From the NCBI GenBank assembly GCA_026003615.1, contig BPHQ01000001.1, positions 62,001-126,000 of the forward strand: a stretch of 64,000 nucleotides of DNA. The letters run 5' to 3'. Positions 47,874-52,529 of this stretch are shown piece after piece; within the stretch, counting starts at the first letter, position 1; every line of letters begins with the position of its first letter. Made by a program: the position numbers and the translations under genes. Below the pieces are notes generated by a model that did no database searches, was not told the origin of the DNA, and saw nothing but the letters and a program-made list of their open reading frames with translations. Source of the stretch: Bellilinea sp. Its GTDB lineage: Bacteria > Chloroflexota > Anaerolineae > Anaerolineales > Anaerolineaceae.

Positions 47874-49196
47874 ATGGTGGATGTGCAATTCCAAAAACAA
47901 CGAATTCCTGATTTTTTCTGGTTATTGGGTTTGGTATTACTAGGCCTGCTGGTGGCAACGGCGCAGCCGGTGAAAGGTCAAACTGCTCAGCCACCGGATA
48001 CGTGTGCTATGCCGTTTCAGCCGGTAGCCGTGCCTTTGACGGAACTGGGAACAGCGGAGTATGTGCGGATGGATGGAACCCCGACCGGATTTGAGGGAGG
48101 TTTGTATCCCGATGGGAGGAATGTCCGCCCATCCCTCCATGAAGAGGCCGGGTTGAATATTTCCCGCCAGATTCACCCTCTTTCAAAAGAGGGACGGTTG
48201 GATGAAGAAAACGGACGGATTTTGCTGATTTCAATCGGCATGTCCAACACGGCTACAGAGTTTGCGGCTTTCACGCGTCTGGCACAACAAAAAGCGGAGA
48301 TTAATCCTCGTTTGGTATTAATCAATGGGGCATTACCCAACCAGATCGCCGAACGCTGGGCCAATCCCGAAGGGATTGCCTGGCAGGAACTGGATAGAAA
48401 GATTACGGGATATGGTTTTTCATCTCAACAGGTGCAGGTTGCCTGGGTTAAGTTGACCAATACCGGCGGGGGAGAGTTTCCGCAGAAAGCCCTGGCCTTG
48501 GAAGCAGACCTGCAAAAGGTCATTCAGCTTTTGAAAGAGAGGTTTCCCAATTTAAGACTGGTGTTTCTTTCCAGTCGGACGCGTTCCTATACCTACTGGC
48601 GCGGATTAAGCCCGGAACCACTGGCTTATGAAACGGGGTTTGCGGTTAAGTGGTTGATTGAAAAGCAAATTCGAGGTGATCCTGAATTGAATTTTGATCC
48701 TGAGCGGGGTGAGGTCAAAGCAGCCTATCTTTCGTGGGGGCCTTATTTGTGGAGCGATGGGGAGAATCCCAGAGAAGATGGCTTCCTCTGGCTGGCTAGT
48801 GATTTAACCAAAGATTGTACCCATCCCTCATCGTCAGGGGCTGAGAAGGTAGCCAGACAACTATGGGAGTTTTTCAGCACCGATACCATTACGCGCGATT
48901 GGTTTTTATTCCCCACTACTGCTTCATCGCCCACGGCAGTAGAAGAAATATTCATTTCCACACCTGTGAGCAGGGCAACCTCATCCAATACTCCCCCCGT
49001 GCCTACCAAAATAACCACGCCAGTTCCGCAAAATACCCCCGCTTCTCTCGGTATGACTTCATCCCCTGAACCCGCTGGGGAAGAAGTAAATTCGACGAAA
49101 AGTGCCTTTCCAACAGGACTGGGAGTCACTCTTTTGTTAGCCCTGGTTGGCATTAGCGTTGTATGGGGATGGTTACAGGCAAGAAAGAAAGATTAA
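47874..49196 (+). CDS. Secreted SGNH-hydrolase-like protein with Pro/Thr linker and C-terminal TM segment
   Basis: ILLISIGMSNTATEF, DCTHPSSSGAEKVARQLWEFF (SGNH block V), C-terminal LGVTLLLALVGISVVWGWLQARKKD. Confidence 0.7.
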   Translation: MVDVQFQKQRIPDFFWLLGLVLLGLLVATAQPVKGQTAQPPDTCAMPFQPVAVPLTELGTAEYVRMDGTPTGFEGGLYPDGRNVRPSLHEEAGLNISRQIHPLSKEGRLDEENGRILLISIGMSNTATEFAAFTRLAQQKAEINPRLVLINGALPNQIAERWANPEGIAWQELDRKITGYGFSSQQVQVAWVKLTNTGGGEFPQKALALEADLQKVIQLLKERFPNLRLVFLSSRTRSYTYWRGLSPEPLAYETGFAVKWLIEKQIRGDPELNFDPERGEVKAAYLSWGPYLWSDGENPREDGFLWLASDLTKDCTHPSSSGAEKVARQLWEFFSTDTITRDWFLFPTTASSPTAVEEIFISTPVSRATSSNTPPVPTKITTPVPQNTPASLGMTSSPEPAGEEVNSTKSAFPTGLGVTLLLALVGISVVWGWLQARKKD

Positions 49197-49450: not shown

Positions 49451-50752
49451 GTGAAATTCGTGGTTAAGGTTTCGCGTTTTCGTATATTAATCACCGGATT
49501 TGTTCTTGTAATTCTGATGGGGCTGATGGTGGTTGGTTTTACACCAGACCAGATTGTTGTGGCGGATGGCCTGGCGGGATTTGCACTGTCTTTTGATGGA
49601 GCAGATGACATGGTCAACCTTGGCAAGACGGTTGATCTGTTCCCCGATGATGGATGGAAGCAGACCAAAACTATCAGTGTATGGGTAAAACCGGAAGGTG
49701 TGGCCGACTGTTCGGTCATCAATGGTATTCCTCGTATTGAGCCAGCCCAATGTGACAATATTTTTGGGGATTTTGCGCGCTGGTGGGGTATCAGCCGCGG
49801 ACCGACTCAAATCTGGGTGTGGATGGCCTGTTTTGACCCGGATGACCCCAGTACCTATCCACCCTCTTCTCCCATTCGTCTGATTCAGTTTGGTTATACC
49901 CCCAATGAGTGGATGCACATTGCACTGGTGCATGGAAATGGCTATCTTACCGCCTATAAAAATGGTTATTTGATGGGTTCGGTGAACTGTATTGCAACCG
50001 CTCAGCCACCTGCTCAGCCGGTTTTGTTCTTCGGTGGGATGATCAAAGCCGATAACCAAAATCAAAATCACAGTTATTGGGGATTTCAGGGGCAGATGGA
50101 TGAGGTGAGAATTTACTCAATTGCCCTGAGTCAGCAGGAAATTCAGGATACGATGATGAGTGAATTAACCGGCAGCGAGGCTGGACTGGTGGCTTATTAT
50201 AAAATGTCCAATGGAAACGGTTTGGTATTAAGTGATGATAGTGGTCACGGTAAGAATGGTCAATTGATGGACGGAACAGATAGCGTGCCGGGGAATGGAA
50301 CACCACCTCAGTGGGTGTTATCCGGTGCTTTTGACAATCCTCCACCGACATTAGTGCCATCACCGACCAGTACGTGGACATTCACCCCATCTCCATCACC
50401 TTTACCACCCACAATAACCCCTGGCGGAACGGCAACCATCACCGCCGGACCAAGTCCTACTCTGACTTCGTCTCCTTCGCCCGTTCCACCAACAATTACT
50501 CCAAGCCGTACGGTAACACCAACTCGAACGCCAACCTTGACCTTTACGTCGGCACCTCCGACGAATACACCAACCACACGTCCTTCCCGGACACCCCGTC
50601 CGACCTTCACCCCTTCCCCTTCGCCGGTCGGGACAAACACGTGGGTGCCAACCCCCACCAGAGCTCAGGGAACTCCTTTTGATTTTACTCCCACGCGGAC
50701 GATTGATCCGAATATGGACAATTTTATCTTCCTTCCCCTGGTGAAGAAGTAA
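49451..50752 (+). CDS. Secreted LamG/concanavalin A-like protein with long Pro/Thr/Ser linker and C-terminal FIFLPLVKK motif
   Basis: FALSFDGADDMVNLG, KTISVWVKPEG, GQMDEVRIYSIALSQQEI; C-terminal tail DPNMDNFIFLPLVKK. Confidence 0.82.
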   Translation: MKFVVKVSRFRILITGFVLVILMGLMVVGFTPDQIVVADGLAGFALSFDGADDMVNLGKTVDLFPDDGWKQTKTISVWVKPEGVADCSVINGIPRIEPAQCDNIFGDFARWWGISRGPTQIWVWMACFDPDDPSTYPPSSPIRLIQFGYTPNEWMHIALVHGNGYLTAYKNGYLMGSVNCIATAQPPAQPVLFFGGMIKADNQNQNHSYWGFQGQMDEVRIYSIALSQQEIQDTMMSELTGSEAGLVAYYKMSNGNGLVLSDDSGHGKNGQLMDGTDSVPGNGTPPQWVLSGAFDNPPPTLVPSPTSTWTFTPSPSPLPPTITPGGTATITAGPSPTLTSSPSPVPPTITPSRTVTPTRTPTLTFTSAPPTNTPTTRPSRTPRPTFTPSPSPVGTNTWVPTPTRAQGTPFDFTPTRTIDPNMDNFIFLPLVKK

Positions 50753-50775: not shown

Positions 50776-51414
50776 TTAGGGAGTTTGGGGCGGTGCAACC
50801 ACTTTGATTTTCACCCAAAAGGACTTATCTCCGCCGCTGCCCAGGCCGAAAATGACTCCCTGCGGATTCTGTAATTTCCAGTAACTTTCGTATTCCCGCG
50901 GTTGTTCGGGTGCTTTCATGTTGACCGAAATGTCCACCAGTCCATCCGGTGGTACGCTGATGGGAAGATTAAAACTGGGTGGTGCTCCCAGCACATTCCC
51001 CGAATCAAACACCACCCGGTAGCTGGTTGTCCAGGTGCAGGAGCCGGTGTTTTTCAACCGCCAGGTTTTGATAAAAGTTTGGCCGGGAGAAAACTCGCTG
51101 CCATCGGGTATGGTCACATCGCTGACAAATTCGGCACGTTCGCAGGGTTTAACACTTTCAACCGGCGTGAATGTTGGAGAGGATGGAGGCGGTGAACTGG
51201 TTTGGGCTGTCACTGGCGGAGTGGTGGTGATGAGCAGTGCAAATTGTGTGGTCAATGCTGAGACGGTTTGGGCAGCAGCGGTGTTGGCAAAATCTCCTGT
51301 GGGAGTAAGTGCCTGACCGGCTTTGGGTAAATTGCAGCCGGCACTGCTGAGCAGGGTCAGAAAAACACCCAGTCCCAAAAGGATATGAGAAATAATCGGT
51401 TTCGATTTTTTCAT
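50776..51414 (-). CDS. Lipoprotein with NBR1-like Ig (FW) domain
   Basis: GQTFIKTWRLKNTGSCTWTTSYRVVFDSGNVLGAPPSFNLPISVPPDGLVDISVNMKAPEQPREYESYWKLQNPQGVIFG; lipobox-like LSSAGCN. Confidence 0.8.
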   Translation of the reverse strand: MKKSKPIISHILLGLGVFLTLLSSAGCNLPKAGQALTPTGDFANTAAAQTVSALTTQFALLITTTPPVTAQTSSPPPSSPTFTPVESVKPCERAEFVSDVTIPDGSEFSPGQTFIKTWRLKNTGSCTWTTSYRVVFDSGNVLGAPPSFNLPISVPPDGLVDISVNMKAPEQPREYESYWKLQNPQGVIFGLGSGGDKSFWVKIKVVAPPQTP

Positions 51415-51497: not shown

Positions 51498-52529
51498 TTA
51501 TTTCTTTACCATAGGAAGAAATAGAAAATTGTTCATATTCGGGTCCAGAGTGCGGCTGGGGGTCAGGCTTGGCTGAGGTGTAAAACCGGGCGGTAGGCGG
51601 GTTGCTGTTGGGGTAGGAGAAGGGGTATTGGTGAAAGTGGCCGTCACCGTAAAGGTGGGGGGAAGCGTGGGTGTAGGACCGTTTCCGAACAACTCGGAAA
51701 TAACCCAAAGCGGATAATTGCCTTCGGGATTTTGCCCCTCAATGTGAACGAGAACCCCGTCATTGCCGTTACCGCTGTCATCGTTCAAAATTAGCCCGCT
51801 GCCATTGCTCATTTTATAATAAGCCTTCAAGGCTGACTCGAAAGGAGGAGTTAGTTCATTGTGGATATTTTCTCGAATTTCATCACCGGTCAGCAGCTGA
51901 TTGTAGACTCTGACCTCATCAATTTGCCCGTGGAACAGGAATTTTCGATCGGGGGGAGTAAAACCACCGCCAATATGTAATACCGTATGATCGGCGGGTC
52001 CGCCATCAGCCCCAACACTCATCCCGCTTTCGCGGCTGCCTGCTAAAAATCCAAAACGGTAGGCGTCTAACCGGTTGTTGTGATGAACCAATGTGATGTG
52101 AATCCATTCGCCATTTTCATAGATGATGGGGATGGAGTCAAAGCCGCTGGTTGGACTGTTGTCGAAATTCCATACCCAAATACGGTCTTGCCCGTTGAGG
52201 ATGCCTCGATAAATGCCCCAAAAGCGCGGACGGTCGCCCACAATTAATTGACAACTGCCGGGGTCGGGGCCGGTACAAACGGGAGAGGGTGCCAGCGGCT
52301 TAATCCAAACACTGATGCTTTTGGTGGATTGCCAGCTCGAATCGCCGAAAATGATCAATTCTTTTTTGGTGGCGACATAATTTGACCAGCCGTCAAATTC
52401 AAGAGAATAGTTCACCGGGTCAGCATAACTGGTAGCAGGTTTTTGAAAAAGAGCGCTCGTGCCCATGAAAATGATAATGATGAGCAAGAAAATTCTTTTC
52501 AGGTATCGAATTCTCGAAATAGACTTCAT
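51498..52529 (-). CDS. Secreted LamG-like protein with Pro/Thr linker and C-terminal FLFLPMVKK motif
   Basis: YSLEFDGWSNYVAT, KSISVWIKPL, GQIDEVRVYNQLLTGDEI; tail DPNMNNFLFLPMVKK. Confidence 0.82.
   Translation of the reverse strand: MKSISRIRYLKRIFLLIIIIFMGTSALFQKPATSYADPVNYSLEFDGWSNYVATKKELIIFGDSSWQSTKSISVWIKPLAPSPVCTGPDPGSCQLIVGDRPRFWGIYRGILNGQDRIWVWNFDNSPTSGFDSIPIIYENGEWIHITLVHHNNRLDAYRFGFLAGSRESGMSVGADGGPADHTVLHIGGGFTPPDRKFLFHGQIDEVRVYNQLLTGDEIRENIHNELTPPFESALKAYYKMSNGSGLILNDDSGNGNDGVLVHIEGQNPEGNYPLWVISELFGNGPTPTLPPTFTVTATFTNTPSPTPTATRLPPGFTPQPSLTPSRTLDPNMNNFLFLPMVKK

Follow-up and report, generated by a model that had tools for sequence, protein, structure and literature searches.

We analyzed a 64,000-nucleotide stretch of a Bellilinea genome (hereafter, the window) and found that two of its secreted proteins end in a tail that is probably an ultrashort C-terminal sorting or retention signal of exported proteins. 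We observed directly the motif itself, its position at the end of the protein, its occurrence on unrelated exported proteins, the exchange of this tail for other anchors, and its phyletic pattern. The tail matches two NCBIfam models, NF053834 (ultrashort_CTERM) and NF050076 (sort_motif_YLP), both titled 'YLP-box putative sorting motif-containing protein', and is therefore not a new discovery: the YLP-box is named and curated by NCBI, and in the literature that we searched we found no paper on it or on its mechanism. What is new here is comparative sequence evidence – the choice-of-anchor context, the exchange of anchors, and a near-exclusion of C-terminal helices – that points to a role in surface retention.

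The plus-strand gene (49451..50752) encodes a LamG/ConA-like secreted protein of 433 aa, and a divergent minus-strand paralogue (51498..52529) encodes one of 343 aa. Both open reading frames combine a signal peptide (a hydrophobic signal-peptide-like N-terminus by a simple hydropathy rule) with a Laminin_G_3 domain (PF13385; E = 1.1e-13 and 4.5e-11, respectively), a Pro/Thr/Ser linker, and a YLP-box tail. The plus-strand protein ends in TRTIDPNMDNFIFLPLVKK and the minus-strand protein in SRTLDPNMNNFLFLPMVKK, each followed directly by a stop codon. The tails themselves, with their stop codons, are NFIFLPLVKK (50720..50752, plus strand) and NFLFLPMVKK (51498..51530, minus strand). Each aligns with positions 1–10 of 10 of NF053834, scoring 12.6–13.4 bits for the plus-strand tail alone and 12.8 bits for the minus-strand tail against a cut-off of 10.

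An earlier sequence-only reading of this DNA had described near-identical ends on moderately similar bodies, and the alignment bears this out, with 12 of the last 15 residues identical versus 38% identity over 331 aligned positions of the bodies. The low-complexity linkers that it placed before the tails are present in both proteins as Pro/Thr/Ser stretches, and, consistent with its view that the tail is not a transmembrane anchor, both C-termini lack a hydrophobic stretch of transmembrane length. The span that it assigned to the tail (50708–50752) does contain the tail, but needs a small correction: it starts at a Pro codon, and the Asp of DPNM is encoded at 50705–50707. The DPNM[DN]NF segment is specific to the LamG proteins, common to that family only. 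The nearest relative of the plus-strand protein (L081:9230-10627, in genome G002; 81% identity over 296 residues) ends in its linker (TTSP), with the tail absent in three frames just downstream, and represents a natural loss of the tail. An AlphaFold model of the window LamG protein had a mean pLDDT of 39.6 from 2 sequences, too poor for use.

Full-length NCBIfam scans, even with E-values of up to 10 allowed, did not show the YLP-box models, which were revealed by isolated tails only. Both are short models that fail to pick up many members, above all in full-length scans; among 60 isolated tails, NF050076 listed 37 and NF053834 listed 31, and in this isolated-tail scan neither window tail was listed for NF050076. 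We saw no difference between the models and the window tails, which have the same residues at the same extreme C-terminal position. The YLP-box is thus a case in which full-length profile scans miss very short C-terminal tags, which argues for searching isolated C-termini.

The general motif is the last seven to eight residues, without the DPNM part, and has the form [VIL]-[YF]-L-P-[LMI]-[IV]-x-[RK]-stop. In an unbiased 800 kb of the window's genome, with 672 called genes and 248,304 aa, we found four occurrences of the core [FY]LP[LMI][VI]; three of these lie exactly two residues ahead of a stop, one in an unrelated 701-aa protein. Six-frame searches showed the same terminal preference on a larger scale: a stop-type codon followed ~39% of core matches (200/514) in 12 tail-rich genomes versus 4/71 in two tail-poor genomes, and the pattern read backwards gave 16 matches versus the 200 forward in the same 12 tail-rich genomes. 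Position −8, which the search pattern did not fix, was Val, Ile, or Leu in 110 of 133 tails, and position −1, where the pattern allowed six residues, was Arg or Lys in 124 of 133; the invariance of Leu and Pro among the collected tails is partly due to selection, while the −8 bias largely is not. We set aside an apparent surplus of non-aromatic residues at −7 in the tails of Peptidase_C25 (C25) proteins, as the other loci had been chosen by a pattern that requires Tyr or Phe there. The exact end is not absolute, since some tails carry a few extra residues: one extends beyond the core to end in YLPLIVHQEHRSP (L240, genome G332), and YLPLTIADY is the C-terminal end of some C25 proteins. The protein at the former locus (L240:1378-2754), a dehydrogenase, has an acidic Pro-rich repeat linker followed by YLPLIVH and then eight further residues.

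Consistent with the earlier suggestion of a C-terminal tag for sorting or processing in Chloroflexota – a reading that we regard as supported, and with which the NCBIfam models agree – many unrelated exported proteins of this phylum have the tail at their very C-terminus. In the loci that we read, tails are the real C-termini of LamG, beta-helix, DUF11, Kelch, RCC1, ExeM/NucH nuclease, subtilase-like, C25, Bmp, and glucose/sorbosone dehydrogenase (GSDH) proteins, dozens of unrelated proteins that mostly have signal peptides (54 of 59 by the simple hydropathy rule). When 61 tail proteins were aligned with MAFFT, they were alignable in YLPLIxR only. The stop-ended pattern [YF]LP[LMI][VI]x[KR-like] gave 12 matches in a genome of the window's genus, 28 in one of its family, and 10–23 in several genomes from three other families; in many Chloroflexota families the count hardly differed, if at all, from that of the backwards-read control. 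The stricter VYLPLIxR-stop occurred at 66 loci among 84,980 species genomes, 52 of them in Chloroflexota (Chloroflexales, Anaerolineae and relatives, and Ca. Aquidulcis). Among the 14 loci elsewhere, 11 close no open reading frame of at least 30 aa and three close frames of 50–96 aa; matches closing real open reading frames are nearly all from Chloroflexota. Tail proteins have also expanded in tandem: at one locus (L122:7700-15447, genome G251), three RCC1-repeat-type paralogues in a row share the tail VYLPMI[VI]R or VYLPMIVR.

The two window genes are paralogues and share the LamG-specific DPNM[DN]NF segment, as would be expected if the tail were merely inherited LamG-family sequence with no role of its own. 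This explanation is nonetheless very improbable: the tail is terminal and reaches far beyond two paralogues, core matches are enriched next to stops, and a LamG relative in another genome (L090:6498-7421, genome G006) has retained the tail with its linker almost gone. We consider the observation confirmed and the tail more than chance.

Three anchoring solutions – transmembrane helix, lipobox, and YLP-box – lie side by side within 5 kb of the window. Next to the LamG pair, the translation of 47874..49196 (plus strand) is an exported protein of 440 aa with no Pfam hit, which we presume to be SGNH-like; it has an ordinary C-terminal transmembrane helix, ending in ARKKD, and is not a tail protein. 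Aligned with it, a homologue in genome G002 (54% identity) ends not in a helix but in the tail FLPLVTHP (L079; 13.1 bits against NF053834). Between the two tail genes, 50776..51414 (minus strand) encodes a lipoprotein with the lipobox SAGC and an NBR1-like Ig domain (PF16158, E = 4.4e-26).

Similar exchanges recur in other families. The window's genome encodes a Bmp substrate-binding protein as a lipoprotein and genome G016 encodes it as a tail protein; GSDH is a lipoprotein in G002 and a tail protein in G016, with the tail added at the point at which the G002 protein ends. Reading 25 GSDH homologues, we found that ~17 are lipoproteins, none of which has the tail; the others have the tail (L239), the tail plus eight residues (L240), or SLH domains (L246), or are mostly large fusions. 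The tail also follows directly after choice-of-anchor Q modules (368–424 of 437 aa, 492–549 of 564, and 494–556 of 571), a place that known anchors occupy in other lineages. A C-terminal transmembrane helix was found in 0 of 85 tail proteins versus 150 of 645 other exported proteins, a contrast that is partly expected because the background includes membrane proteins. Lipobox-like sequences were found in 5 of 79 tail proteins, most of the five unconvincing, versus 64 of 391 others (p = 0.02). These anchor calls follow a simple lipobox and hydropathy rule as opposed to a trained predictor, and the homologue comparisons were mainly hand-picked. The anchors are not strictly exclusive, since a G002 lipoprotein of the NCBIfam PDIAV_lipo type (L079:8257-9576) has two, a clear lipobox and the YLP tail VYLPLVRK. 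Since similar proteins are exported by clades that lack the tail, its function is replaceable.

Because homologues without the tail are anchored by lipid or membrane, the exchanges point to retention rather than to export, and they speak against the idea that the tail carries Sec-exported proteins through an outer layer of the envelope much as a type IX secretion system (T9SS) does, with retention being secondary. That idea does find some footing in the resemblance of its logic to that of T9SS C-terminal domains (CTDs) and in the multilayered envelope, with an outer layer, of the chloroflexote Litorilinea (PMC13319060). However, BAM and LPS genes are absent in Chloroflexota according to the same paper (PMC13319060), and we judge an export signal unlikely. 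A search for SprA/Sov (TIGR04189) matched 0 of 24 tail-rich genomes, but the control genomes gave no match either.

For retention, the preferred reading, we infer both the process and a surface partner. Tail proteins would be exported through their N-terminal signal peptides, which are of the ordinary kind. Once they are outside the membrane, a putative surface partner would recognize the last seven to eight residues (aromatic-Leu-Pro-aliphatic-aliphatic-x-basic, at or very near the free C-terminus), and this recognition would do the work of a lipid, transmembrane, or SLH anchor by keeping the protein cell-bound. In the window proteins, the Pro/Thr/Ser stretch may be a flexible spacer, keeping the LamG domain at a distance from the surface.

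The sequence-only reading had noted that the tag is neither LPXTG nor PEP-CTERM, and this holds both for the motif and for the enzymes. The YLP-box resembles sortase substrates in its Leu-Pro start, C-terminal position, basic end, and frequent location behind a low-complexity spacer, but it lacks Thr-Gly and a transmembrane helix. We rejected the tail as an LPXTG substrate, as LPLVKK lies at the very end with no helix, and sortase as its partner, as PF04203 is present in 47 of 52 genomes regardless of tails and absent from tail-rich G016 and G321. Like the PEP-CTERM, GlyGly-CTERM/rhombosortase, and MYXO-CTERM/myxosortase systems, the YLP-box marks many unrelated exported proteins that have only a C-terminal tag in common; those tags, however, consist of a motif, a transmembrane helix, and a basic cluster, whereas the YLP-box is seven to eight residues with no helix. 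PEP-CTERM/exosortase was rejected because the tail has neither PEP nor helix and because PF09721 is real in 1 of 24 tail-rich genomes, with one further sub-threshold match; neither sortase nor exosortase tracks the tail. GlyGly-CTERM and MYXO-CTERM, in which a Gly- or Cys-containing motif precedes the transmembrane helix and basic cluster (PMC3237569, PMC11980579), were rejected as the tail lacks both such a motif and a helix.

The T9SS offers a different comparison. Its CTD is likewise a C-terminal signal without a transmembrane helix, and here too a C25-family protease accompanies the signal and often bears it. The T9SS CTD is, however, a folded beta-sandwich as opposed to an ultrashort tail, and the C25 proteins found here score far under the PorU equivalog cut-off. 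T9SS cargo was rejected for the window proteins, whose C-terminal parts are a low-complexity linker and the tail, with no CTD model listed.

A co-occurring protease family, which the earlier reading had proposed looking for, is Peptidase_C25. Within a 300-genome set, strong C25 matches were present in 28 of 28 genomes that have at least five strict tails versus 24 of 272 others (Fisher p about 2e-25, not corrected for shared ancestry), and all but one of those 24 show one to four tails. In a comparison of 26 tail-rich with 26 tail-poor genomes, all of the former had C25, versus one strong and three weak matches among the latter. Two genomes (G178 and G286) have three to four pattern matches, some of which may be chance, and no C25. 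Ordinary cargo does not yield a C25-like pattern, since the common cargo domain Beta_helix is present in 208 of 300 genomes, many tail-poor ones included. Within the window's genus, C25 was found in all five genomes of 91% completeness or more and was absent from the three at 71–77%; its absence from the window's genome (1.65 Mb, 71.5% complete) may be due to incompleteness.

The C25 proteins match PF01364 with E-values down to 1e-95. Their closest solved relative is PorU (6za2), with no gingipain match returned, and against the NCBIfam T9SS_sortase PorU model (NF033707) the best score was 217 bits, with the equivalog cut-off of 420 not reached. The catalytic His and Cys columns are conserved in 42 of 43. 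C25 proteins split into several old groups as opposed to one orthologue, and most have the tail or a variant of it at their C-terminus, so they may be sorting enzyme, cargo, or both. In Chloroflexales and relatives, across several families, C25 has two DUF11 proteins as neighbors, one a large tail protein and the other a membrane protein. An AlphaFold model of a tail-bearing C25 had a mean pLDDT of 38 from 3 sequences, too poor for use.

In four other genomes of the window's genus, C25 proteins are short and their tails degenerate. In three loci (L277, L278, and L279) they are 519–529 aa long, and a degenerate stretch resembling the tail, PLPLVKR in two of them, lies ~20 residues from the C-terminus; the same ~215-aa protein, which starts with a CPxC...C pattern, is always the neighbor. 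A second C25 context occurs in four loci of the window's family (L207, L209, L213, and L230) and four of family f43 (L199, L203, L208, and L215), where C25 lies beside a conserved ~290-aa protein without a Pfam family. A radical-SAM-type protein is present in six of these eight loci (Pfam-confirmed in L207 only), and in the f43 genomes a sortase-like gene lies on the other side (Pfam-confirmed in L199). This context resembles a gene cluster for modifying peptides or proteins.

Two versions of the retention reading account differently for C25. In the first, retention would be non-covalent: the intact tail would act as a short strand or hydrophobic hook that docks into a putative surface receptor or S-layer protein, with C25 proteins being common cargo. 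Consistent with this version, the tail has neither a transmembrane helix nor a classical cleavage motif, its basic last residue near a free C-terminus would suit docking, and C25 proteins bear the tail as cargo would. There is also a precedent in type B T9SS cargo, which is held through partner binding with its signal intact (PMC9143113). Docking leaves the tight C25 pattern unexplained, given that Beta_helix does not show it, and we regard it as plausible, though short of an even chance.

In the second version, retention would be covalent: a C25 transpeptidase would cut at or near the YLP-box and join the protein to a glycan or lipid of the surface, as PorU does with T9SS cargo; for PorU, a single transpeptidation is reported both to remove the CTD and to attach A-LPS (PMC8545088). 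This version would fit the co-occurrence in both genome comparisons, the agreement between C25 presence and genome completeness in the window's genus, the resemblance to PorU, the conserved catalytic columns, and the conserved neighborhood of large tail protein, DUF11 membrane protein, and C25. Against it stand the possibility that C25 proteins are cargo, their several old groups, the unreached PorU cut-off, phyletic counts that are uncorrected for shared ancestry, and the two genomes with pattern matches but no C25. We hold covalent sorting to be plausible, though well short of an even chance, and PorU-like C25 proteases acting as a sortase are accordingly named only tentatively as the leading candidate for the partner. 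A fuller and rather speculative proposal is that Chloroflexota have a covalent sorting system with no outer-membrane translocon, in which PorU-like C25 transpeptidases take the YLP-box as their substrate signal; such a system would be related by evolution to the attachment step of the T9SS but would act on a tag of seven residues.

To our knowledge, little is known about protein retention on the unusual multilayered envelope of Chloroflexota. The anchor exchanges described here suggest a likely function for a motif that had a name, and the phyletic pattern of C25 provides a concrete candidate partner. If C25 is indeed the sorting enzyme, PorU-type sorting would exist outside Bacteroidota and without a T9SS.
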